From Acidobacteriota bacterium (GTDB lineage Bacteria > Acidobacteriota > Terriglobia > Terriglobales > Acidobacteriaceae): a stretch of 64,000 nucleotides of DNA. This document shows, piece by piece, positions 34,620 to 50,341 of the stretch. Within the stretch, counting starts at the first letter, position 1. Every line of letters starts with the position of its first letter. The stretch lies in the NCBI GenBank assembly GCA_021806005.1, contig JAJZDM010000003.1, positions 35,979-99,978 of the forward strand, written 5' to 3'. A model generated the notes under the pieces. It ran no database searches. It had not been told where the DNA came from and was given only the letters and a program-made list of their open reading frames with translations. The position numbers were made by a program, and so were the translations under genes.

Positions 34620-35648
34620 ATGACCCAGTCACGTCAGCTTCGCGTAGTCGCTATCGGCGGTGGAACCGGACTGTCCACGCTCCTGCGCGGGTTGAAGTCC
34701 TATGTAGCACCAGCTTCCGGCACACCCCCACCCGCCTATCCCGCGCCCAATCCGAAGCCCACACTCATCGACGAACTCTCCGCCATCGTTACGGTGACCG
34801 ACGATGGTGGCTCCTCCGGCCGTCTGCGCGAAGACCTGAACATGCTTCCTCCGGGCGATATCCGCAACTGCCTGGTTGCGCTCTCTCCGGATGAGACCCT
34901 CCTCTCTCGCCTCTTCCAGTACCGATTTGCCAACGGCGACCTGCAGGGGCACAGCTTCGGCAATCTCTTCCTCGCTGCCCTCACCGGCATCACCGGGGAC
35001 TTCGGCCAGGCGGTTCAGACGAGTTCGCAGATTTTGAACAGCCGAGGCCGTATCTACCCCTGCACCATGGCCAACGCCACCATCTCAGCGCGCATGGACG
35101 ACGGCTCCATCGTTCATGGCGAGACAAACATTACAGCCTCCCAGCGCTCCATCACCGAGTTGATGCTTACCCCCACCGATGCCCGGGCGCTTCCCGAAGC
35201 CCTGGAAGCCATCGCCTCCGCCGACCTGATCACGATCGGCCCCGGCTCCCTCTACACCTCACTGATCACCAATCTGCTGGTCCGCGATGTTCCCCAGGCC
35301 ATCGCCCGCAGCCACGCAACGCGGGTCTTCATCTGCAATCTGATGACTCAGGCCAATGAGAGCCTTGGTCTGACAGCCTCCCAGCACATCGAAAAGATCC
35401 TGGACCACGCCGGCAGCCAGATCTTCGACTACGCTCTGATCAACACGGGCCCGGTGGACGCCAGGACGCTGGATCAGTATGCCCGCTCCGGACAGTCTCC
35501 CATCGAGGCCGATCTGAACCGTATCCGCGCTCTGGGCGTGGTGCCGATCACTGGCAACTTCGTCCATCAGGGCGACGTCCTGCGCCATAGCTATGACGTT
35601 CTGGCAGAAACTGTCTTGCAACTGGCTCTGGAAACCTCCGCCGTATAA
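34620..35648 (+). CDS. yvcK: YvcK/CofD-family protein (UDP-GlcNAc-binding gluconeogenesis factor family)
   Basis: 'VVAIGGGTGLSTLLRGLK', 'VTDDGGSSGRLREDLNMLPPGDIRNCLVALSPDE', 'GPGSLYTSLITNLLVRDVPQAIARS'. Confidence 0.93.
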   Translation: MTQSRQLRVVAIGGGTGLSTLLRGLKSYVAPASGTPPPAYPAPNPKPTLIDELSAIVTVTDDGGSSGRLREDLNMLPPGDIRNCLVALSPDETLLSRLFQYRFANGDLQGHSFGNLFLAALTGITGDFGQAVQTSSQILNSRGRIYPCTMANATISARMDDGSIVHGETNITASQRSITELMLTPTDARALPEALEAIASADLITIGPGSLYTSLITNLLVRDVPQAIARSHATRVFICNLMTQANESLGLTASQHIEKILDHAGSQIFDYALINTGPVDARTLDQYARSGQSPIEADLNRIRALGVVPITGNFVHQGDVLRHSYDVLAETVLQLALETSAV

Positions 35649-37406: not shown

Positions 37407-39203
37407 TCAGTAAACATCGCGATGATATCGATGTTGCTCTTGGAGTGCGCCGACATATTCCTCGGCGGCCGGCGCCGACATCGCACCTTGTTCCCGAGTT
37501 ATGCGGCAAAGCGTCGCATGGACATCTTTTGCCATTCGCGACGCGTCGCCGCAAACATAAACGCTTGCTCCTTCCTGAAGCCAGTTCCAAAACTGTGGCG
37601 CCCGTTCCAGCATCCGGTCTTGGACGTAGATCTTGTGACCGTTATCGCGCGAAAACGCCGTGTCGAAGGATGTCAGGTGCCCATCGGCCTGCATCGATTC
37701 AAGTTCTTCGCGGTAGAGGTAATCGGTAGCCGAACTGCGTTCTCCAAAGAAGAGCCAATTCTTTCCCTTATGCCCCAAAGCCCGGCGCTCATGCAGAAAG
37801 CCGCGAAATGGAGCGATACCGGTTCCGGGGCCAATCATGATCATGGGAGCATCCGGGTTCGCCGGCAGCTTGAATCTCTTGTTGGGCTGAATGTAAATCG
37901 GCAGACGGTCCTCAATGGAAGTACGATCGGCAAAGAACGTAGAACATACGCCGCCGCGGTGACGATTGTGGGCTACGAATCGCACCACCGCAACCGTCGT
38001 GTGAATCTGGCCTGCATGCGCCGCAGGACTGGAGGAGATGGAATAAAGCCTCGGCGCAAGCTTCGGCAGCAAGGTGACCACATCCTCGGGATCGCCAATC
38101 ACCTCCGGGAACTCGATGAGTAAATCGATGAAACCGCGATCGTAGGCATACGCTTCAAGAGCGGTTTGATGCTCAGGTTTCAGCAAATCAAGGAGCTGCG
38201 CGCAGTCTCCCCGCTCGGCGTATCCTTGCATGATCTTGCGATTCAGCCGCGTGATTTCGCGTTCGTGAACGAGCGCGTCGTAGAGTGTTGTCGTTCCTTC
38301 CTTCGCGCTTGACACTCGCTCGTTGCCGTTGAAACGCAGCTTTTGCAGAATCTCAGCGACCAGATTCTGATCGTTGGCCGGAATCACGCCACAAGCGTCC
38401 CCGGCTTCGTAGGACATCCCAGTTCCCTCAATCGAGAATGCGACGTGCAGAGTGGATTTTGTGGATGCGAGATGGGTCAACGATCGCTTGTCGATCACCG
38501 CTGCCAATAGAGGCTGATCGCGTGTGAAGGCCCTCGCAGCCTGCCGCTTCGGGTCCGCGCCGGCGTCAGTAGGCAAAGCCGGCGGTTTCAATTCGGGCAT
38601 TCCCACAGGTGGCCTGGGAGACTGCCAAGGAGAATCCTCGTTCAAACGAGCAAGGATGAATGCCTTCCACTGCGCGAACGGCTCGTCCACATCCACGTCG
38701 CAGTCGATCCGATCCGCCAGCCGGTTGCCTCCAAGTGCAGCCAGTTTTGCGTCAAGGTTCTTTCCGAACTCGCAAAAGTGCTCATAGTGCCGGTCGCCGA
38801 GCGCAAAGACCGCATAGGAAAGCTTATCCATGCGGGGGAAGCGCTCCAGGCAAAGCTGCTCGTAGAAGGGCTCTACGCCATCCGGAGCATCACCATCGCC
38901 ATACGTGCTGGCAAGAATCAATGCGCATGACTCCGCCGCAAGGGATGCCGCTGTGTAACCCACAAGCGTGGAAACAGACGGAATGTATCCCTGCGCTTTA
39001 AGCTCCTTGGCCAGCTTGCGAGCAAGCCCTTCCGCTACTCCCGATTGGGAGGCGTAGAGCACAGCGATGCGCTGGCCCGTTTCCTGCGCAGCCGAATCCC
39101 GCGGAACACTTGAAAACATGCCTGCGAGAAGTCCATTGAGCCACGCACGCTGCTCGGATGTGAATGGAGCATCTTCCGGAATGTAAGGAACGGCAACACT
39201 CAT
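37407..39203 (-). CDS. CysJ-like NADPH flavoprotein (flavodoxin + FAD + NAD(P)H domains)
   Basis: Flavodoxin 'AVLYASQSGVAEGLARKLAKELKAQG', FAD 'RLYSISSSPAAHAGQIHTTVAVV', 'GGVCSTFF', NADPH 'MIGPGTGIAPFRGFLHERRALG', 'VYVCGDASRMAKDVHATL'. Confidence 0.92.
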   Translation of the reverse strand: MSVAVPYIPEDAPFTSEQRAWLNGLLAGMFSSVPRDSAAQETGQRIAVLYASQSGVAEGLARKLAKELKAQGYIPSVSTLVGYTAASLAAESCALILASTYGDGDAPDGVEPFYEQLCLERFPRMDKLSYAVFALGDRHYEHFCEFGKNLDAKLAALGGNRLADRIDCDVDVDEPFAQWKAFILARLNEDSPWQSPRPPVGMPELKPPALPTDAGADPKRQAARAFTRDQPLLAAVIDKRSLTHLASTKSTLHVAFSIEGTGMSYEAGDACGVIPANDQNLVAEILQKLRFNGNERVSSAKEGTTTLYDALVHEREITRLNRKIMQGYAERGDCAQLLDLLKPEHQTALEAYAYDRGFIDLLIEFPEVIGDPEDVVTLLPKLAPRLYSISSSPAAHAGQIHTTVAVVRFVAHNRHRGGVCSTFFADRTSIEDRLPIYIQPNKRFKLPANPDAPMIMIGPGTGIAPFRGFLHERRALGHKGKNWLFFGERSSATDYLYREELESMQADGHLTSFDTAFSRDNGHKIYVQDRMLERAPQFWNWLQEGASVYVCGDASRMAKDVHATLCRITREQGAMSAPAAEEYVGALQEQHRYHRDVY

Positions 39204-40981
39204 CGCGATACTGGCTCCTTGTTCTTAACGAACGATTGCAGTTCGGAAACACTATGCCTGCGGCTAAACGCAAGGAACGATTCATCCGGATGGCGCCTTT
39301 CCTCAAAGGCCGCAAAGAGACCTTCCAACACAGGCGACAGATCACGATACGCTACGGAAGGGATAAGCTCTCGCGCCAGCCCCTGGTCCCGTCCAGATCC
39401 CCCGCCGAGAACCACCTGATAGCCCTCTTCACCATTCACCTTCGTACCCAACAACCCGATGTCACCGACGTAGTGTTGGGCGCACGAGTGCGGACACCCA
39501 GTCACGTGGAGATTCACGGGTTGGTCGATCTTGAATCGCGCGTCGAGCCGTTGGGCAAGTTCTACTGCATGCGCCTTGGTGTCGGTGGCCGCATAGCGGC
39601 ATCCGCGACTTCCCGTACAGGCCACGGTACCGCGCAGAACAGCGCCCGCCGTGCACTCAAGACCCACGGAGCGCAGACGCTCTATCGCCAACGTGACCCG
39701 CTCCGAGGGAACGTTGGGAATGATGAGATTTTGCCAGACGGTCAGGCGCAACTCACCGCTGCCGAACTCCTCCGCCATGTCTGCCAAGGCACGCATCTGG
39801 TTGATGGGCAGCCGGCCGACCGGAACAGAGACGCCGATATAATGCAAGCCGTCCTGGCTCTGCGGGTAGACACCGATGTGGCCGGCGCGGGCGACGGCGT
39901 GATGCTCGAGATCCTCCACTGGAACACGCATCAAGGGAAAGGCCAGGCGCTTTTCGGTCTCCGCAATAAACTTCTCCACGCCCCACTTGTCCACAAGGTA
40001 CTTAAGCCGCGCCTTCCTGCGGTCCGTGCGGTCGCCATGATCGGCAAAGACGCGGATCATGGCCGCGGCAACCGCAACTACCTGCTCAGGATGAAGCAAC
40101 AACCCAGAGTCGCTGGCGAACTGCTTGTGTCCCGTAATGCCACACAGCAGCACGCGGAAGTACACACCCGATGGAACGCCTCGTCCCGCGCCGATGCGGG
40201 CAGCAACAAATCCGATGTCGTTGGTATCGGCTACCACGCTGATGGCGCCTCCCCCGTCAAAAGCGACGTTGAACTTGCGGGGCAATCCGTAGAGGTCACG
40301 CGAGTTCAAAATGTAGTGATCCAGGGCGACCGCGAAGGGGGTGGTGTCGATCCATTCGCGTGAATCAATCCCGGCAAGAGGCGAGGCGGTGATGTTGCGA
40401 ATATTATCCGCACCGGATCCGCGCGACGTGAGCCCAAGGGATTGAACGCCGGTCAATACGCGCACGATGTCCTTCGGCCGGAACTCGCGGATCTGCAGGT
40501 TCGCACGGGTCGTGATGTCAGCCCGGCCCGCGCCCCAACTCCCAGCGATATCGGCCAGGCCGCGCATCTGGTGCGAGGTCATCTTCCCACCCGGGATGCG
40601 CATCCGCAGCATAAAGGAGTCCTGCGCAGGGGCGACGTAAAACAAGCCGTGAAACTTGAAGCGAAAGACGTCTTCAGCCCCGGGCGCGCGATCTTCTTTG
40701 GCATGCACAAGAAGCTTTTCCCAGATGTCCAACGGGTTTTGCTCGTACTTCCAAAGCTCTTCCCTGGAGAGGTCCGAGACCGGTGTTCCGTGAAAGGTCT
40801 CCTCCACCGGTTCGGCACGATTGGCGAAACCTGAGCCAGGATCATCTGTCAGCAGACCAGAGTCAGTGTGGCCCACAAAGGGGCGCACTCCGCGCTGCAT
40901 CGCTCCCGCAAAGAATCCGAGAAGATACTCCTTCTGCCGGGCGCTGAAGGCCGTCGAATTTTCAGAGACAAAAGATTCCAT
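39200..40981 (-). CDS. nirA: NirA-type siroheme/4Fe-4S nitrite (sulfite) reductase
   Basis: Two-fold ferredoxin-like/siroheme repeats, cluster ligands 'CTGSRGC...CPHSC', 'HVTGCPHSCAQHYVGDIGLLG'; start placed at MESFVSENS; 4-nt overlap with the flavoprotein ORF. Confidence 0.9.
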   Translation of the reverse strand: MESFVSENSTAFSARQKEYLLGFFAGAMQRGVRPFVGHTDSGLLTDDPGSGFANRAEPVEETFHGTPVSDLSREELWKYEQNPLDIWEKLLVHAKEDRAPGAEDVFRFKFHGLFYVAPAQDSFMLRMRIPGGKMTSHQMRGLADIAGSWGAGRADITTRANLQIREFRPKDIVRVLTGVQSLGLTSRGSGADNIRNITASPLAGIDSREWIDTTPFAVALDHYILNSRDLYGLPRKFNVAFDGGGAISVVADTNDIGFVAARIGAGRGVPSGVYFRVLLCGITGHKQFASDSGLLLHPEQVVAVAAAMIRVFADHGDRTDRRKARLKYLVDKWGVEKFIAETEKRLAFPLMRVPVEDLEHHAVARAGHIGVYPQSQDGLHYIGVSVPVGRLPINQMRALADMAEEFGSGELRLTVWQNLIIPNVPSERVTLAIERLRSVGLECTAGAVLRGTVACTGSRGCRYAATDTKAHAVELAQRLDARFKIDQPVNLHVTGCPHSCAQHYVGDIGLLGTKVNGEEGYQVVLGGGSGRDQGLARELIPSVAYRDLSPVLEGLFAAFEERRHPDESFLAFSRRHSVSELQSFVKNKEPVSR

Positions 40982-41254
40982 GCCGAATGTCCTTTGCTCG
41001 CGTGATGCGCAAATGCCGACGTGCCGAAGCGATCGCTCAGTCGGCGGTAGCGGGGCAGCCATATACCTTTGCGAGGCCCCTGGAAGGGGCTCTGGAGGCA
41101 TAGCTTAAGTGAGTTTTCAGTTGAAATAACCCTGGCACGGCATGGGCAGGGCGATCTGGATAGGGAGACGTCAGAGTCTCACCTTACGATGCATGCTACG
41201 CGAAGTTGTTTTCGAACACAAGCCGTTGGTTGAGTTCACGAGTGGACTGCCGCT

Positions 41255-42922
41255 TTAGCTAGTGGACGATGAATCGTCCGCAGCCACCTGACCAGCCATA
41301 GACCAGCGAGTCCTGCGCAAGTCGTCGTTCAGCAAGATCGCCTCAGCGATCTCTCGCATCGATTTGCGGCGCTGCCGGCTCTCGCGCTGCATAGCCTTGT
41401 AGGCCGTGTCTTCATCAAGTCCAAAGTCACGCTGCAAGACGCCTTTGGCTTTCTCGATGTGCTTCCGGGATTCCAGTCGGTCGGAAAGCTCCAGATTTTC
41501 GCTCTCCAGCCGGGCGCGCTCCAGTTCAGCTCCAACGAGGTGACCGGCCGCCGTAAGCAGCCGCACCTCTTGCTCGCTGTGGTAGTACGGCTTGCGATGC
41601 TGCAGGTTGATCACGCCAATCAGCTTGCCTCGGCACAGTATGGGCACGGAGAGAAAGGCTTCGAAGGTATCTTCCGGAAGGTTCTTGAATTGCTGGAAGC
41701 GAGGATCTTTCAGGGCCTTCTCAGAGATGGCAACCGGCTCGCGATGCCAGCCGACCCACCCTGTGATTCCCTGGCCCAGCCAGAGGCCAAGATGATCGAC
41801 GATATCGGCGTGAGGATTCTTCGAGGCACGCAGTACCAGTTGATCTCCTTCGAGCACATACACGAAGCAGGAATCGCACCGGATGAGAGTACAGGCAAAG
41901 TCCACGATTCGATTCAGTACGGTGTGCAGTGAATCGGACGCCGCCATACGGCTGCCAATCTCGTGCAGGAAGTCCAGCGCCGAGATCGCCGGCCTGGCAT
42001 TTTGCTCGATTCCATGTTCGATTGTCAGGAGCGGGCTGACAGGCGAGGATATCCCACCCGACACACGGAGCGAGGCCGCCGCATGCTTTTGCTTGAGCAA
42101 CCTGCCGGCATTCTCGGAGATTTCCTTAATGAGGAATCCCATCTTCGACTGCGAGGGTTCGAAGTCGGGCACAAGCCGGTAGATCGAGAGGCCCTCCGTG
42201 GTGCTGGGGCCGATAGAGCCGATCACCGTCGCGCGGAATCCTTCGTAAAGCGCGTCCGTATACTCCATGCGTTCCGCCATCAGGAAGAGATGGGCAACCT
42301 GCCCCGCGTTCATGAACAGCACGAGATCCACATGGCCATGGGCCAGAGCAATGACAGCTTCCCGTAGCGGTTGAACATCTTCAGGCAGTGCCCATTGGTA
42401 GACCGGAACTCGCGTAATCGAGATGCTCTTCTCCGCAAGGGCCGTGAGCAGTTCGGGGTTTGAAGTGCCGTATTCCTGCACTGCGATGTTCATCCCCGTC
42501 AGGTTATCTCCGAACTTTTCTTCCATCGCCTGCACCAGAACGCGCCAGGTAAACGGCTCGGGAGCAACGAGCGTGATGGGAATCCCGAATTCGCGTAACG
42601 CACTGGATGATTTCGGTCCACGCGCGGCAATCATGACCGACCTTAAAGCGTTGAGAACACGCTCCTGGTCGATGTGCTCTGAAGCCGTTTTGATGAGGGC
42701 ACGAACACCAACGCCTGTGGTGAAGATCACCAGGTCAAATGCTCCGGCGATAAGCGCTTCGGCAAACTCGATCACCGGTCCATCAGAACTGATTGGAATC
42801 TCCCGCATCGCGGGAGCGGTAAGCGGTTGTCCCCCATAAGTACGAACCAGCTTGCCCGCCTCCGCGGCACGCCGCGATTCGAGGCTAAGAACGCGAATAC
42901 CGTTGAAGTTTGCTGTCGCCAT
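41255..42922 (-). CDS. HemD-like (uroporphyrinogen-III synthase fold) - GAF - ANTAR regulator
   Basis: N-term 'FNGIRVLSLESRRAAEAGKLVRTYGGQPLTAPAMREIP...VIFTTGVGVRALI'; GAF 'LNRIVDFACTLIRCDSCFVYVLEGDQLVLRASKN...GQGITGWV'; C-term ANTAR 'HIEKAKGVLQRDFGLDEDTAYKAMQRESRQRRKSMREIAEAILL'; start CAT 42920-42922. Confidence 0.9.
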   Translation of the reverse strand: MATANFNGIRVLSLESRRAAEAGKLVRTYGGQPLTAPAMREIPISSDGPVIEFAEALIAGAFDLVIFTTGVGVRALIKTASEHIDQERVLNALRSVMIAARGPKSSSALREFGIPITLVAPEPFTWRVLVQAMEEKFGDNLTGMNIAVQEYGTSNPELLTALAEKSISITRVPVYQWALPEDVQPLREAVIALAHGHVDLVLFMNAGQVAHLFLMAERMEYTDALYEGFRATVIGSIGPSTTEGLSIYRLVPDFEPSQSKMGFLIKEISENAGRLLKQKHAAASLRVSGGISSPVSPLLTIEHGIEQNARPAISALDFLHEIGSRMAASDSLHTVLNRIVDFACTLIRCDSCFVYVLEGDQLVLRASKNPHADIVDHLGLWLGQGITGWVGWHREPVAISEKALKDPRFQQFKNLPEDTFEAFLSVPILCRGKLIGVINLQHRKPYYHSEQEVRLLTAAGHLVGAELERARLESENLELSDRLESRKHIEKAKGVLQRDFGLDEDTAYKAMQRESRQRRKSMREIAEAILLNDDLRRTRWSMAGQVAADDSSSTS

Positions 42923-43059: not shown

Positions 43060-43092
43060 GCAGTTACGCAAAGCGCGCAGTTACGCAAAGCG
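43060..43092. repeat. Perfect tandem 17-bp direct repeat in the divergent nitrate/nitrite intergenic region
   Basis: GCAGTTACGCAAAGCGc GCAGTTACGCAAAGCGg (16 identical nt, period 17); a degenerate relative CGTTACGCTCAAACGC lies near 43192-43207. Confidence 0.85.
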
Positions 43093-43438
43093 GGCTACCT
43101 CCATAGATTCGTCGAATGGAGATAAAGATCCCATAAAGAAACACAGGACAAAGGTGCGATCCAGACACCGCTTGCACAGAATGTAATTTAACGTTACGCT
43201 CAAACGCAACCACCCGGAGGATATGAGCTTCTTCAAGCTCACCCTGTTCTCCACTGGCTCCGCATGCCAGCAGGCCTTTCCGGCAAGGGGTGACGATCCA
43301 ATGGCTCCGTGAAGAGCTTGGCCCGGACGGCCGCAGATTGCATGCACATCCTGAGACACACTCGCGCGTGCGCTGGCACCGCAGTGTACCTGCAGAAACT
43401 TGTGCCTCAACTTCTCTTCGCAACCGACAGGAGTCAAA

Positions 43439-44995
43439 TTGGAACTTCCCCTGCTCACACGAGTTCAGGAAGGCGGAGACCTCTTCCGTCTGGCCACGGC
43501 GGAGACGGTCGCGACGATGACCCCTGCGGATGGCGCCGTAGGCCTCCTGTGCGGCGCAGGCTCGCAGAGCAGACTGCCGCACCCTCCGGGGCCAGGCGAG
43601 CAATATCGCTTTCACTTCGACATGACGAAGTGCATCGGATGCAAGTGTTGCGTCGTGGCCTGCAATGAACAGAATGGCAACCCCGCGGATATATTATGGC
43701 GCCGTGTGGGAGAGATTGAGGGAGGAGTCTACCCGCACACTCAGCGCCACTATCTCTCGATGGGCTGCAACCATTGCCTGGAACCAACCTGCCTCACCGG
43801 GTGCCCGGTGGACGCGTACTCCAAAGACGGCCTTACCGGGATTGTTCGCCACAGTGCGGACGCCTGCATCGGCTGCCAGTACTGCACATGGAACTGCTCG
43901 TATGGCGTGCCACAATACAACCCTGAGCGCGGTGTGGTGGGTAAATGCGACATGTGCTATGGAAGACTGGTGCGAGGCCAGGAGCCGGCTTGCGCCTCTG
44001 CCTGTCCTGAAGACGCAATTCGCATCGAAGTGGTGAAGGTGGCAGAGTGGCGAGAGCATTACCGTACGTCGGCCAACTCTCCCGGCATGCCATCAGCCGA
44101 CGACAGCATCTCGACGACGCACATCCAGCTTCCGCCGAAGATGCCCGGCGACACAGGCAGAGTTGACCTGAGCTGTCTTCGCCCTGAGCACGCGCACTCG
44201 CCGCTGATTGTGATGACCGTCCTGACCCAGCTCTCTGTGGGAGCGTTCACGTCCATCGGGATCCTCCAGGCATTCTCCACGCAACCGCATCGCACCGCGG
44301 CGCTGATTGCATTACTGGTAGCCATGATCGCGCTGGCGGCTTCGACTCTCCATCTAGGGCGGCCCATCCACGCGGCGCGCGCGCTGAAGATGTGGCGCCG
44401 CTCGTGGCTCAGCCGTGAAGTACTGCTTTTCACCCTCTTCGCTTTTGCCGCAACTGCGTATTCGGCTGTGCTGTGGATTGGGATGCGCGGGGCAGCTTGG
44501 CTCGGGCTGCTGACTGTCATCCTGGGAATCTGCGGGGTGAGCGCCAGTGCGAGACTTTATCTGGCGCCGGGACGCCCGGCGTGGAACTCGCCACTCACCC
44601 TCGTGGAATTCTGGGCCACAACCGCATTACTGGGAGCGTGTTGCGCCAGTATTCTCACTCTCGGGGCTGCCAGCACGCGCTATGCTGTGTTGTTGGCTTT
44701 TGGCTTTGCGCTGGTAACCACAGGGCTCAAACTGGCGCGTCTCGCCAGGTCCCGCGTACATGAGTTGCACGGCTCCTGGCAGTTGCTCACTACCGTGCTC
44801 TCCACCCATCTTCTCCTCCGCATCGTATTGCCGTGCGTTGGCCTTGCGCTTCTGCCGCTTGCAGCAACACCGTGGGCGCGAATCGCTACCGCGGTTGTGA
44901 TGATCGGCGGAGAGTGGATGGGGCGCTATCTCTTCTTCGTCTCCGTGGTCCCCTCCAATATGGCCAGCGGGTACCTGACACAGGAGGGGGCATGA
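43439..44995 (+). CDS. DmsB-DmsC fusion: four-cluster 4Fe-4S electron-transfer domain fused to a DmsC-type membrane anchor
   Basis: CIGCKCCVVAC, CNHCLEPTCLTGC, CIGCQYCTWNC, CDMCYGRLVRGQEPACASAC clusters followed by ~8 TM helices; likely TTG start at 43439 after CAGGAG. Confidence 0.88.
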   Translation: MELPLLTRVQEGGDLFRLATAETVATMTPADGAVGLLCGAGSQSRLPHPPGPGEQYRFHFDMTKCIGCKCCVVACNEQNGNPADILWRRVGEIEGGVYPHTQRHYLSMGCNHCLEPTCLTGCPVDAYSKDGLTGIVRHSADACIGCQYCTWNCSYGVPQYNPERGVVGKCDMCYGRLVRGQEPACASACPEDAIRIEVVKVAEWREHYRTSANSPGMPSADDSISTTHIQLPPKMPGDTGRVDLSCLRPEHAHSPLIVMTVLTQLSVGAFTSIGILQAFSTQPHRTAALIALLVAMIALAASTLHLGRPIHAARALKMWRRSWLSREVLLFTLFAFAATAYSAVLWIGMRGAAWLGLLTVILGICGVSASARLYLAPGRPAWNSPLTLVEFWATTALLGACCASILTLGAASTRYAVLLAFGFALVTTGLKLARLARSRVHELHGSWQLLTTVLSTHLLLRIVLPCVGLALLPLAATPWARIATAVVMIGGEWMGRYLFFVSVVPSNMASGYLTQEGA

Positions 44996-47202
44996 AGCTT
45001 GCAGACTGGCTGGCGCGAAAAAGCGGCCTCGACATTGGCTCCTCGAAGTACAGCTACAGCGACGATCCTGTACTGGGCTTTACCTCCTCGGGCAAATGCT
45101 CTGAGCGTTGGGTCAACAGCACATGCGGCTACTGCTCCGTTGGCTGCGGTATGCAACTCGGCGTAAAGGATGGCCGCGTGGTGAGTGTACGCGGCAATCC
45201 CGATCATCCCGTCAACCTGGGCAAGCTGTGTCCCAAGGGACTGGCGGAGCACTATGCGATCGAGGCAGAAGGCCGGGCCAGATATCCGCTGTTACGCAGA
45301 AACGGCCAGCTTGTACGGATAAATTGGGATGAGGCGATCCGCACCATGGTCGAACAGCTCCGCGCCGTGCAAGACAAATATGGACCGGAGTCGCTGGGCG
45401 TGATCAGCACCGGGCAGCTTGTGACCGAAGAATTCTATACTCTCGGTAAATTGGTGCAGCTTGGCTTCGGCACCCGGAATTACGACGGGAACACGACACT
45501 TTGCATGTCCACCGCGGTCTCCGGATACAAGCGGTCCTTTGGCAGCGACGGGCCTCCCGGCGCCTATGAAGATCTCGAGCACGCAGACGTGATTCTGCTC
45601 ATCGGCGCAAACATCGCGGAGAACCATCCGATCCTCTGTACGCGGCTGGAGGCGAACAAAGCCAAGACGCTGATCGTCGCCGATCCTCGCGTGACCAAGA
45701 CGGCCATGATGGCCGACATCTATCTATCCCTGAAGCCACGCTCCGATCTCGCGCTGATCAACGCCATGCTGCGCATCGTGATCGAAGAAGAACGCTATGA
45801 CGCGAATTTTATTTCCAGCCACACCACAGGCTTCGACGAACTGCGCGCATCGCTCGAGCCCTACACACTCGAATACGCCGCGCAGATCACGGGCCTCGAA
45901 CCGGGGATGATCCGCAGGACCGCTCTCCTCTATGCCAACGCAAATGCGGCGTTCATTGGCTGGACGATGGGCGTGAACCACAGCACCAAGGGCACAGAGA
46001 CCGTCAATGCCATGAATAACCTGGCGCTGATTACCGGCAACATCGGGCGCCAAGGTGCCTCGCCGTTCTCTATCACCGGCCAGTGCAATGCGATGGGCAC
46101 GCGCGAGGCCGGATTTACTTCGGGAATTCCGGGGTATCGCAAGTTTGAAGACGAAAAGGATCGTCAGCAGATTGCCGATCTATGGAACCTGCCGGTGGAG
46201 CGCATTCCCACCGGGCGGGGCCTGGCCTATCCCGACATCATTGAAGGCGCTGTGGCCGGCAAGATCCGCGCTCTCTGGATACTCGGGACGAACCCGCTGG
46301 TTTCATTCCCGAACATCGACGTGCTGAAGCGCGCACTGGACAATCTTGATTTTCTCGTGGTGCAGGATGGATTTCATCCCACACCTACCACGGAGTTGGC
46401 CGATCTGGTGCTTCCCACCGCCATCTGGGGCGAAAAGGAAGGCACCTACACCAACTCTGAACGCCGGGTAAGCAAGGTGAATGCCGCGGTTGCGCCACCC
46501 GGAGAAGCCCGCTCCGACTTCGATATCTTTCTGGCCGTCGCTGAGAGCCTGGGATGCAGAGAAGAATTGTTCCCCGGCTGGAGCGATCCGGGCGATGCGT
46601 TCAACGAGTGGCGGCGCGTCTCCGCGGGCCGGCTTTGCGACTACTCCGGCATGACCTATGAACTGATGAATGAAATCGGTGGGATTCAGTGGCCATTCAC
46701 CAGCGAAGCACTCTCCGGCGCCTCTTTGCCCCGCAGGTTGTACAGCGATGGGATCTTTCCAACCGAAGATGGACGAGCACGCTTATTGCCAACGCAATGG
46801 GCCCCGTTCCCCGAGCAGCCAAGTTCAGAGTTTCCATTGATTCTCAACACCGGGCGTACGGTCGAGCATTGGCACACCCGCACCAAGACAGGGGCCATCT
46901 CGATTCTCCAGCGCATGGCGCCGCGCGCCTGGCTCGAAATGAATCCCAAAGATGCGCAGCAGCTCCGCCTACAGGCGCACGACCGTGTCGAAGTGATCTC
47001 GGCTCGCGGCCGGGTGAGTAAGGTCGAGTTGCGCATTACTGAGATTGTGGCTCCCGGACAGGTGTTTCTGCCCTTTCACTTCGCTGAGACGAACGCGAAT
47101 CAGATCACCCAAAGCGCATTCGATCCCATCTCCAGAGAGCCAAACTATAAGCAGTGTGCTGTACGCATCGAAAAATCGTCCGCCAACGCCGCCCATGCAT
47201 AA
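44992..47202 (+). CDS. NasA/NarB-type molybdopterin nitrate reductase catalytic subunit
   Basis: 4Fe-4S motif 'STCGYCSVGCGMQLGVKDGRVVSVRGNPDHPVNLGKLCPKGL', Mo-bis-MGD motifs; ATG overlaps the upstream TGA (ATGA). Confidence 0.9.
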   Translation: MKLADWLARKSGLDIGSSKYSYSDDPVLGFTSSGKCSERWVNSTCGYCSVGCGMQLGVKDGRVVSVRGNPDHPVNLGKLCPKGLAEHYAIEAEGRARYPLLRRNGQLVRINWDEAIRTMVEQLRAVQDKYGPESLGVISTGQLVTEEFYTLGKLVQLGFGTRNYDGNTTLCMSTAVSGYKRSFGSDGPPGAYEDLEHADVILLIGANIAENHPILCTRLEANKAKTLIVADPRVTKTAMMADIYLSLKPRSDLALINAMLRIVIEEERYDANFISSHTTGFDELRASLEPYTLEYAAQITGLEPGMIRRTALLYANANAAFIGWTMGVNHSTKGTETVNAMNNLALITGNIGRQGASPFSITGQCNAMGTREAGFTSGIPGYRKFEDEKDRQQIADLWNLPVERIPTGRGLAYPDIIEGAVAGKIRALWILGTNPLVSFPNIDVLKRALDNLDFLVVQDGFHPTPTTELADLVLPTAIWGEKEGTYTNSERRVSKVNAAVAPPGEARSDFDIFLAVAESLGCREELFPGWSDPGDAFNEWRRVSAGRLCDYSGMTYELMNEIGGIQWPFTSEALSGASLPRRLYSDGIFPTEDGRARLLPTQWAPFPEQPSSEFPLILNTGRTVEHWHTRTKTGAISILQRMAPRAWLEMNPKDAQQLRLQAHDRVEVISARGRVSKVELRITEIVAPGQVFLPFHFAETNANQITQSAFDPISREPNYKQCAVRIEKSSANAAHA

Positions 47203-48962: not shown

Positions 48963-49033
48963 CGCTCGATGGAGCGGATTGGTTCTCGATCAGAACTAGC
49001 GTTTGAGCCCAGGTTATGCGACACAGGAGAGTC

Positions 49034-50341
49034 ATGACGACGCACAAAGTTGAGCAACTCATTATTGCCACGGCCGGTTTCTTTTGGTGTTTCCTCATGT
49101 GGTTTTCGACCGCCGCCTTCAGTCCCAGCATTGCGGCTGATTACCACCTCAACATCAAGGCGCTCGGGCTTCTCGCGAGTTCGGCCATCTGGATGGCTCC
49201 GGCAGGCAGGGTCCTCGCCGGGTGGGCCTCGGATCGCTTTGGGGCTCCGCGCACCTTCGCTTGTCTTCTCGGCGGATGTGGCTTGATCTCGATTGCCTCA
49301 GGATTCACCACGAACTACAACGTGCTCTTTCTCGAGCGCATCCTGGTCGCTATCGCCGGCGTCTCGTTCGTCGTCGGAATTCAGCATGTCGCGCAGTGGT
49401 TCGATGCGCACGAGATCGGCACGGCGGAAGGGCTCTATGCGGGCACGGGAAATGCCGGAGCGGGCGCCGGAGCGCTGGTGTTGCCGCGCCTGTTCGGCAC
49501 CAACTATCACGCCGCATTCATCGATCTCGGCGTGGTTGCACTGATCATTGCCGCCTGGTACCTCTGGCGCGGAAGAGCTGCAACTTCCGCTGAGCGGAAA
49601 AACCTGGTGCGCGGAAAAAGCGGTCTGCGCGGCACGCTATTTATCTGGAGCCGCTACATCGCCATTGCCCTCATGCTCGCCTATGCGATGTCCTTCGGCC
49701 TGGAGATCGCATTGAATGCCTGGCTTCCAGGCTACTTCATGCGGGGCTTCCACAAAGAGATTCTGGCGCTGGGATTCCATGGCGTTGCCGGCGTGCAGAT
49801 CGCCGCCGGTACGTTCGCGGCAGTCGCATCCTTCACGGCCTCGCTGTTCCGCCCGTTTTCCGGGTTCATGTCCGATCTCTTCCAGCGCCGGGGGTGGGCT
49901 CCGCTGCCCTTCATCGCTAAGACATTGCCATATGCGCCCCGGCTCCATTGGCTTGGGGTTTCCCTGATTCTGATTATTCTGGCAATGTCCGGCCTGACTG
50001 CCAGCGGCCTTTCCGGATCGCTCCATCTGTCAGTGGTCACGCTGGTTGCATTGGGCATATTCATATCATGTGGAACGGGAGGCACATTTGCGCTTGTCCC
50101 TCTGCTCTTTCCAGACCGCCCCGGATCGGCCGCAGGTTTTATTGGCGGCGTCTCAACCGCGGCGGCGATCGTCTATCCGCTCATCTTCTCGAGGGGGGAG
50201 AACCCTCACATCGGATACATCTGCGTAGCGTTTTTCATGTTCCTTCCGTTCATGCTCTTTTACTTCTGGGCCGCGCGCTATGAACGCCATCCGGAAGAAC
50301 ACGGACTCCTGCCAGGCAGATTGGCCCTCGATGAGGCATAG
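49034..50341 (+). CDS. narK: MFS nitrate/nitrite transporter (NarK/NNP family)
   Basis: 12 TM pattern; 'AGRVLAGWASDRFGAPR', 'YAGTGNAGAGAGALVLPRLFG', 'GTFALVPLLFPDRPGSAAGFIGGVSTAAAIVYPLIF'. Confidence 0.87.
   Translation: MTTHKVEQLIIATAGFFWCFLMWFSTAAFSPSIAADYHLNIKALGLLASSAIWMAPAGRVLAGWASDRFGAPRTFACLLGGCGLISIASGFTTNYNVLFLERILVAIAGVSFVVGIQHVAQWFDAHEIGTAEGLYAGTGNAGAGAGALVLPRLFGTNYHAAFIDLGVVALIIAAWYLWRGRAATSAERKNLVRGKSGLRGTLFIWSRYIAIALMLAYAMSFGLEIALNAWLPGYFMRGFHKEILALGFHGVAGVQIAAGTFAAVASFTASLFRPFSGFMSDLFQRRGWAPLPFIAKTLPYAPRLHWLGVSLILIILAMSGLTASGLSGSLHLSVVTLVALGIFISCGTGGTFALVPLLFPDRPGSAAGFIGGVSTAAAIVYPLIFSRGENPHIGYICVAFFMFLPFMLFYFWAARYERHPEEHGLLPGRLALDEA

Follow-up and report, generated by a model that had tools for sequence, protein, structure and literature searches.

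NnaR, described in Streptomyces and Mycobacterium (PMC6277429, PMC11162112), is composed of a HemD-like part joined to a response-regulator DNA-binding domain, and the Streptomyces protein was reported to be devoid of HemD activity (PMC6277429). In Klebsiella, nitrate assimilation is controlled by the one-component protein NasR (NIT-ANTAR), for which R340, K345, K347 and an aromatic residue at position 362 are required for RNA binding (PMC7496416). In the NasS-NasT system of Paracoccus and others, an ANTAR protein acts on the nas leader in response to nitrate or nitrite (PMC3795266). The targets of NasR and EutV are hexaloops with a closing C:G pair and fixed positions 1 and 4 (PMC7496416, PMC3369931). 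Canonical ANTAR targets carry A at loop position 1, which is important for both EutV and NasR, and in eut leaders the linker measures 5-12 nt, a 14-nt linker being non-functional (PMC3369931). For fusions of HemD with ANTAR, nothing relevant was found in the open-access literature.

The window analysed here, a stretch of 64,000 nucleotides from an Acidobacteriaceae genome, encodes such a fusion, designated HGA, with the following gene and domains.

41255..42922, minus strand: HGA (HemD-GAF-ANTAR fusion protein), 555 aa, single ORF with ATG at 42922, kept in 19 relatives
42128..42853, minus strand: HEM4 (HemD-like) domain, aa 24-265, NnaR-type branch, Pfam E 5e-33
41522..41929, minus strand: GAF domain, aa 332-467, Pfam E 3e-17, fold match 3ci6
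41333..41491, minus strand: ANTAR RNA-binding domain, aa 478-530, Pfam E 2e-17

In the domain search, all three domains scored far over their Pfam gathering scores. The first-pass annotation had described a single ORF joining HemD-like, GAF and ANTAR modules; this was borne out by Pfam and by conservation across the 19 relatives, and the C-terminus indeed scored as ANTAR (PF03861, 63.1 bits against a gathering score of 27.3). The homologue search returned 20 loci, one of which was an unrelated Vibrio ANTAR match. As the other 19, all from Acidobacteriaceae, encode HGA (71-87% identity, one locus reaching a contig end), an assembly artefact can be dismissed as the origin of the fusion.

When searched with phmmer, HGA matched Rv1626, EutV-type proteins, NasR and AmiR. 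The RNA-binding residues of NasR (R340, K345, K347, aromatic 362, R366 and N373) were compared with those of HGA: counterparts of the first four are retained, the aromatic one being Y508, while R366 and N373 are replaced by Q512 and R519, as in Rv1626. A search of the source genome revealed no ANTAR protein other than HGA. The AlphaFold2 model was of moderate confidence (mean pLDDT 65.6, higher in the HEM4 part). Its top Foldseek match was Thermus uroporphyrinogen III synthase (U3S, 1wd7), in line with the HemD fold annotated at first pass; the GAF structure 3ci6 appeared lower in the list. In alignment A4, the GAF domain contains an invariant CDxC motif (aa 349-352) and a third invariant cysteine (aa 430), which may form a metal or redox site.

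Among NCBIfam models, the HEM4 part of HGA was best matched by the NnaR-type model PRK07239 (133 bits, below the full-length cut-off of 273, only the HEM4 part being matched), closely followed by PRK05928.2-1 (130 bits). The objection that the fusion might be the only functional HemD does not apply, since a search of the source genome for a second, stand-alone hemD, as suggested at first pass, found a separate HEM4 protein, whose top models, unlike those of HGA HEM4, are of the HemD/HemX type. No DNA-binding family exceeded its cut-off in HGA (Pfam/NCBIfam), and GAF and ANTAR stand in place of the C-terminal DNA-binding domain of NnaR. Because its HEM4 part best matches the NnaR-type model, HGA looks like an NnaR-like sensor fused to an RNA-binding output. 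With NnaR it would share a HemD-like sensor of the same branch (PRK07239), the control of nitrate/nitrite assimilation and the presence of a separate HemD in the genome; it differs in its output, where a GAF is inserted and ANTAR, an RNA-binding domain with putative leader-RNA targets, takes the place of the DNA-binding domain of NnaR.

Four cleft blocks (TTGVGV, ARGPK, QEYGT and IGPSTTE) do not vary across 19 aligned HGA sequences and, in the active-site comparison with HemD proposed at first pass, a conserved Tyr aligned with that of QLYG in Thermus U3S. Such strongly conserved blocks, together with the aligned Tyr, could also be the mark of a bifunctional protein in which HEM4 serves as a second, active uroporphyrinogen-III synthase and raises the siroheme supply for NirA. 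We consider this improbable in view of the NnaR-type top match, the lack of HemD activity reported for NnaR in Streptomyces (PMC6277429) and the separate stand-alone HemD. For a regulatory HEM4 domain, the invariant blocks would be compatible with ligand binding and are silent on which ligand is bound; that it binds a tetrapyrrole is put forward tentatively.

HGA is surrounded by the following genes.

39200..40981, minus strand: nirA, siroheme nitrite reductase (NCBIfam NirA family NF007126, 802 bits, cut-off 523)
37407..39203, minus strand: CysJ-like NADPH flavoprotein (domain/family match), probable electron donor of NirA
43439..44995, plus strand: nasB-like DmsB-DmsC iron-sulfur/anchor fusion, TTG start taken from the alignment
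44992..47202, plus strand: NasC/NapA-like molybdopterin oxidoreductase (domain/family matches), probable assimilatory nitrate reductase
49016..50341, plus strand: NarK-family nitrate/nitrite transporter (TIGR00886, 148 bits, below cut-off)

HGA is followed by nirA and then by the CysJ-like gene; the opposite strand carries nasB, the NasC/NapA-like reductase, an alginate-export-like porin and the NarK-like transporter. This gene set is an assimilatory nitrate/nitrite cluster, and the identification of the neighbour as a siroheme nitrite reductase was upheld by the family score. The start of nirA called by the program (41101) is too early: the alignment placed the conserved start, which has a ribosome-binding site, at ATG 40981, and positions ~40982-41192 are nirA leader, not coding sequence. 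In the HGA-nasB intergenic region, positions 43062-43096 contain a near-perfect direct repeat, GCAGTTACGCAAAGCG, absent in the aligned relatives, and a third GTTACGC is found at the nasB promoter. Elsewhere in the window, an ORF at 34620-35648 appears by eye to be YvcK/CofD-family-like and is unrelated to HGA.

Full-length HGA was present in 45 of 251 sampled Acidobacteriaceae genomes; in two others it was split by a frameshift (G102) or matched over aa 1-436 only (G017). A phylum-wide sample of 396 genomes gave 22 matches at the strict cut-off, every one of them within Acidobacteriaceae. NirA was found in 34 of the 251 family genomes, 33 of which also have HGA (Fisher p 5e-30 without correction for phylogeny), and in this family HGA usually adjoins siroheme nitrite-reductase genes. 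That the three domains are present in HGA, and the linkage, can be taken as virtually beyond doubt. In the clade of the window, HGA is followed by nirA and the nasB operon is divergent; in a second arrangement (group 2), HGA is divergent from a single nirA-cysJ-nasB-nasC operon.

Several further observations concern the history of the locus. At 1129 bits, the score of the window HGA (G000) is similar to those of genomes from other genera (g46, g9), and genomes of its own genus (G159, G202, G227, G245) scored 665-768, in a scan whose alignment A4 was built from window-like sequences and favours such sequences in bit scores. The nas cluster and its regulator may thus have been transferred between genera, as far as such scores can indicate. 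In one genome (L017/L037), an intact HGA lies next to mere fragments of cysJ and nirA; this locus is a decaying nas cluster in which the regulator ORF is still open. Three genomes (G034, G234, G520) contain two full-length HGA copies each, one copy per pair being flagged with a stop codon by the scan.

In the NasS-NasT system, where an ANTAR protein likewise acts on a nas leader in response to nitrate/nitrite, the sensor NasS is a separate protein, whereas sensor and ANTAR are fused in HGA. This difference is qualified by the many Acidobacteriaceae genomes in which HEM4 and GAF-ANTAR are separate ORFs. At L050, L051, L052 and L053, for instance, separate genes for HEM4 (~285 aa) and GAF-ANTAR (~237 aa) are located away from nas genes, and in two genomes the split genes are 2-3 kb apart or less. 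As none of these split genes, found in other genera, adjoin nas genes, they were set aside as support for nas regulation.

Between HGA and nirA, the following leader elements were recognised.

41193..41221, minus strand: putative sigma70 promoter of nirA, TTGTGT-17-TAGCAT (by eye on the alignment, conserved in relatives)
41162..41185, minus strand: hairpin P1, GAGAC-UCUGAC-GUCUC, hexaloop with U1 and G4, C:G closing (RNAalifold ab initio, 10 loci)
41130..41152, minus strand: hairpin P2 (element A), loop CAUGCC with C1 and G4, C:G closing (RNAalifold, alignment)

The putative promoter was not called by a generic promoter scan. The window-clade consensus shows P1 (GAGAC-UCNGNN-GUCUC) and P2 (GCAC-CAUGCC-GUGC), separated by ~10-13 nt, directly after a promoter-like TTGTGT-17-TAAGAT, and RNAalifold found both hairpins in 10 loci without any supplied structure. 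Compensatory changes affected 5 of the 17 pairs of P1 and P2 (four of them in the P1 helix), more than in any of 500 shuffles or any slid control, and G at loop position 4 was invariant in both alignment columns. Furthermore, a leader model built from the 10 loci recovered the nirA leader in 3 loci left out of its building. Under strict filters, the covariance model R1 matched only 3 of the 251 family genomes, and leaders were thereafter read directly.

In the group-2 nirA leaders, element A (e.g. GACAC-CACGCC-GUGUC) is followed ~25-30 nt later by an element B, GCUC-CNNGNN-GAGC; when 13 of these leaders were submitted unprompted to RNAalifold, exactly A and B were obtained, and the compensatory change in element A exceeded nearly all shuffles. 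Upon folding of isolated leaders, hairpin B was often not the favoured structure. The nirA leader of the window has no B hairpin, and its P2 is weakened by a one-base stem deletion relative to its relatives.

The nasB operon of the window is preceded by comparable elements.

43172..43200, plus strand: putative sigma70 promoter of the nasB operon, TTGCAC-17-TACGCT, TATGCT in relatives (by eye, alignments)
43254..43270, plus strand: hairpin P1', CUGGC-UCCGCAU-GCCAG, seven-base loop with U1 and G4, C:G closing (RNAalifold ab initio, 15 loci)
43303..43318, plus strand: hairpin B, GGCUC-CGUGAA-GAGCU, hexaloop with C1 and G4, C:G closing (RNAalifold, 15 loci)

Here too, the putative promoter was not called by the generic scan. 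RNAalifold gave, unprompted and from 15 loci, the consensus CCGGC-YCNGNNN-GCCGG plus GGCUC-CNYGAW-GAGCC, with compensatory pair changes. The nasB hairpin B is the same element as that found in 27 of the 30 family nirA leaders; it was not the favoured fold when the window leader was folded alone. Intact hairpins in the window are nirA P1 and nasB B; nirA P2 is weakened and nasB P1' has a seven-base loop. Within the source genome, the nasB leader illustrates the layout better than that of nirA, because P2 of the window nirA is one stem base short and hairpin B is missing there. Finally, paired hairpins also precede nirB, a non-orthologous siroheme nitrite reductase, in three HGA-carrier genomes (NirB identity confirmed by NCBIfam for two of the three loci).

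The loops obey a distinct code. The pattern GCUC-N6-GAGC occurred in 27 of 30 nirA leaders, with C1 and G4 in all 27 and variable positions 2, 3 and 6; in leader loops outside B, position 1 is U or C. Two C:G-closed Y1/G4 hexaloops were found in 15 of the 30 nirA leaders, against 0.17 in shuffles, and hexaloop pairs of the A1G4, R1G4, Y1A4, Y1C4 or Y1T4 type were found in none of them. Around the locus, canonical A1/G4 dual hexaloops amounted to a single intragenic pair, attributed to chance; four further matches to the B pattern in the same genome, inside coding sequences, were dismissed likewise. When a stringent paired pattern was searched in the 251 genomes, 13 matches lay by nitrite-reductase genes (three of them ahead of nirB), each in an HGA carrier; about a dozen others were scattered, as were those of the reversed control. 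The hairpins are almost certainly real, conserved RNA elements.

Like the EutV-type dual-hairpin motif (PMC3369931), they consist of two small C:G-closed hairpins with hexaloops in which positions 1 and 4 are conserved, the latter as G; they differ by a pyrimidine instead of A at position 1, a longer A-B linker and some seven-base loops. The A-B loop-to-loop distance is 33-40 nt in most leaders, compared with a canonical linker of ~5-12 nt. On their sequences, the leader hairpins thus resemble ANTAR targets yet break two canonical rules, A1 being replaced by C or U and most linkers being longer. These two departures, together with the absence of any Rfam family match to the hairpins (the Rfam search returned tRNA only), would also suit a different explanation, in which some other RNA-binding factor recognises the hairpins or they form a cis-acting, riboswitch-like attenuator, with HGA acting on other RNAs. 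Against it, ANTAR targets are known by just this signature of C:G closing, six-base loop, G4 and tandem layout, the genome has no ANTAR protein besides HGA, and within the sample the element is found ahead of nirA and nirB in HGA carriers only; we regard it as quite unlikely. Because HGA and its leaders usually adjoin, neither their linkage nor their co-occurrence amounts to independent proof that HGA binds them. In our judgement, the hairpins are probably the targets of HGA.

The question of how binding would affect expression was addressed from the sequences that follow the hairpins. Two nirB leaders contain stem-loops with long T runs, i.e. clear intrinsic terminators, directly 3' of the paired hairpins. 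In the 30 nirA leaders, no conserved intrinsic terminator was found, and terminator-like hairpins after the pairs were not enriched (7/30 against 4.75 in shuffles, by a crude terminator scan). The proposal made at first pass, that ANTAR controls nitrate/nitrite transcripts by antitermination, thus stands as regards conserved, ANTAR-target-like paired hairpins in the leaders, and falls short as regards terminators in the nirA leaders. The main alternative is that HGA controls the leaders through translation or Rho-dependent termination, with no intrinsic terminator involved. The barely elevated terminator count is in its favour, as are the 70-190 nt that separate hairpin B from the start codon and the description of actinobacterial ANTAR RNAs acting on translation (PMC8164766). 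However, the two nirB leaders show the classical layout, hairpin B is distant from the ribosome-binding site and the scan behind the 7/30 count is crude, so that we hold this alternative to be rather unlikely.

Leader-RNA control by HGA, most likely through antitermination, was therefore adopted, given an anatomy like that of NasR and EutV and the terminators of the two nirB leaders; antitermination rather than translation control is preferred with some reserve. HGA is likely to be an RNA-acting one-component regulator of nitrate/nitrite assimilation. As their mRNAs start with conserved, putative paired binding-site hairpins, the neighbouring nitrite- and nitrate-reductase genes are probably switched on by HGA at the RNA level. 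In the proposed scheme, the NnaR-type HEM4 and the GAF would receive a signal, most likely the nitrate/nitrite status, a tetrapyrrole of the siroheme route or both, upon which the C-terminal ANTAR domain would be freed or dimerised. The ANTAR dimer would then grip two hairpin loops, themselves recognised by conservation, in the nascent nirA, nirB and nasB leaders, thereby allowing expression of the downstream genes, most likely through antitermination of transcription in the manner of NasR and EutV.

HGA would resemble NasR as a one-component ANTAR regulator of nitrate assimilation with key residues kept and paired hexaloops. It differs in its sensor (HEM4 and GAF instead of NIT), in its loops (C or U at position 1 instead of A) and in that no conserved terminator was found in the nirA leaders. 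A bolder version, in which the HemD-derived sensor gates the RNA-binding domain so that leaders of the siroheme enzymes NirA and NirB directly read the availability of a siroheme-pathway tetrapyrrole, and in which ANTAR reads C1/G4 hexaloops rather than the canonical A1/G4, is speculative and, as a whole, doubtful.

The combination of an NnaR-like sensor with an ANTAR output and with a C1/G4 variant of the target code is real and conserved, and apparently undescribed. It suggests that, within the same nitrogen pathway, one HemD-like sensor module drives a DNA-binding output in Actinobacteria and an RNA-binding output in Acidobacteria. The defined RNA targets offer a way to examine which signal HemD-like regulatory domains receive, a question which is the same for NnaR. 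Searches for such RNAs use the A1/G4 motif; if ANTAR domains recognise a broader set of loops, as these leaders suggest they may, other ANTAR targets may have been missed.
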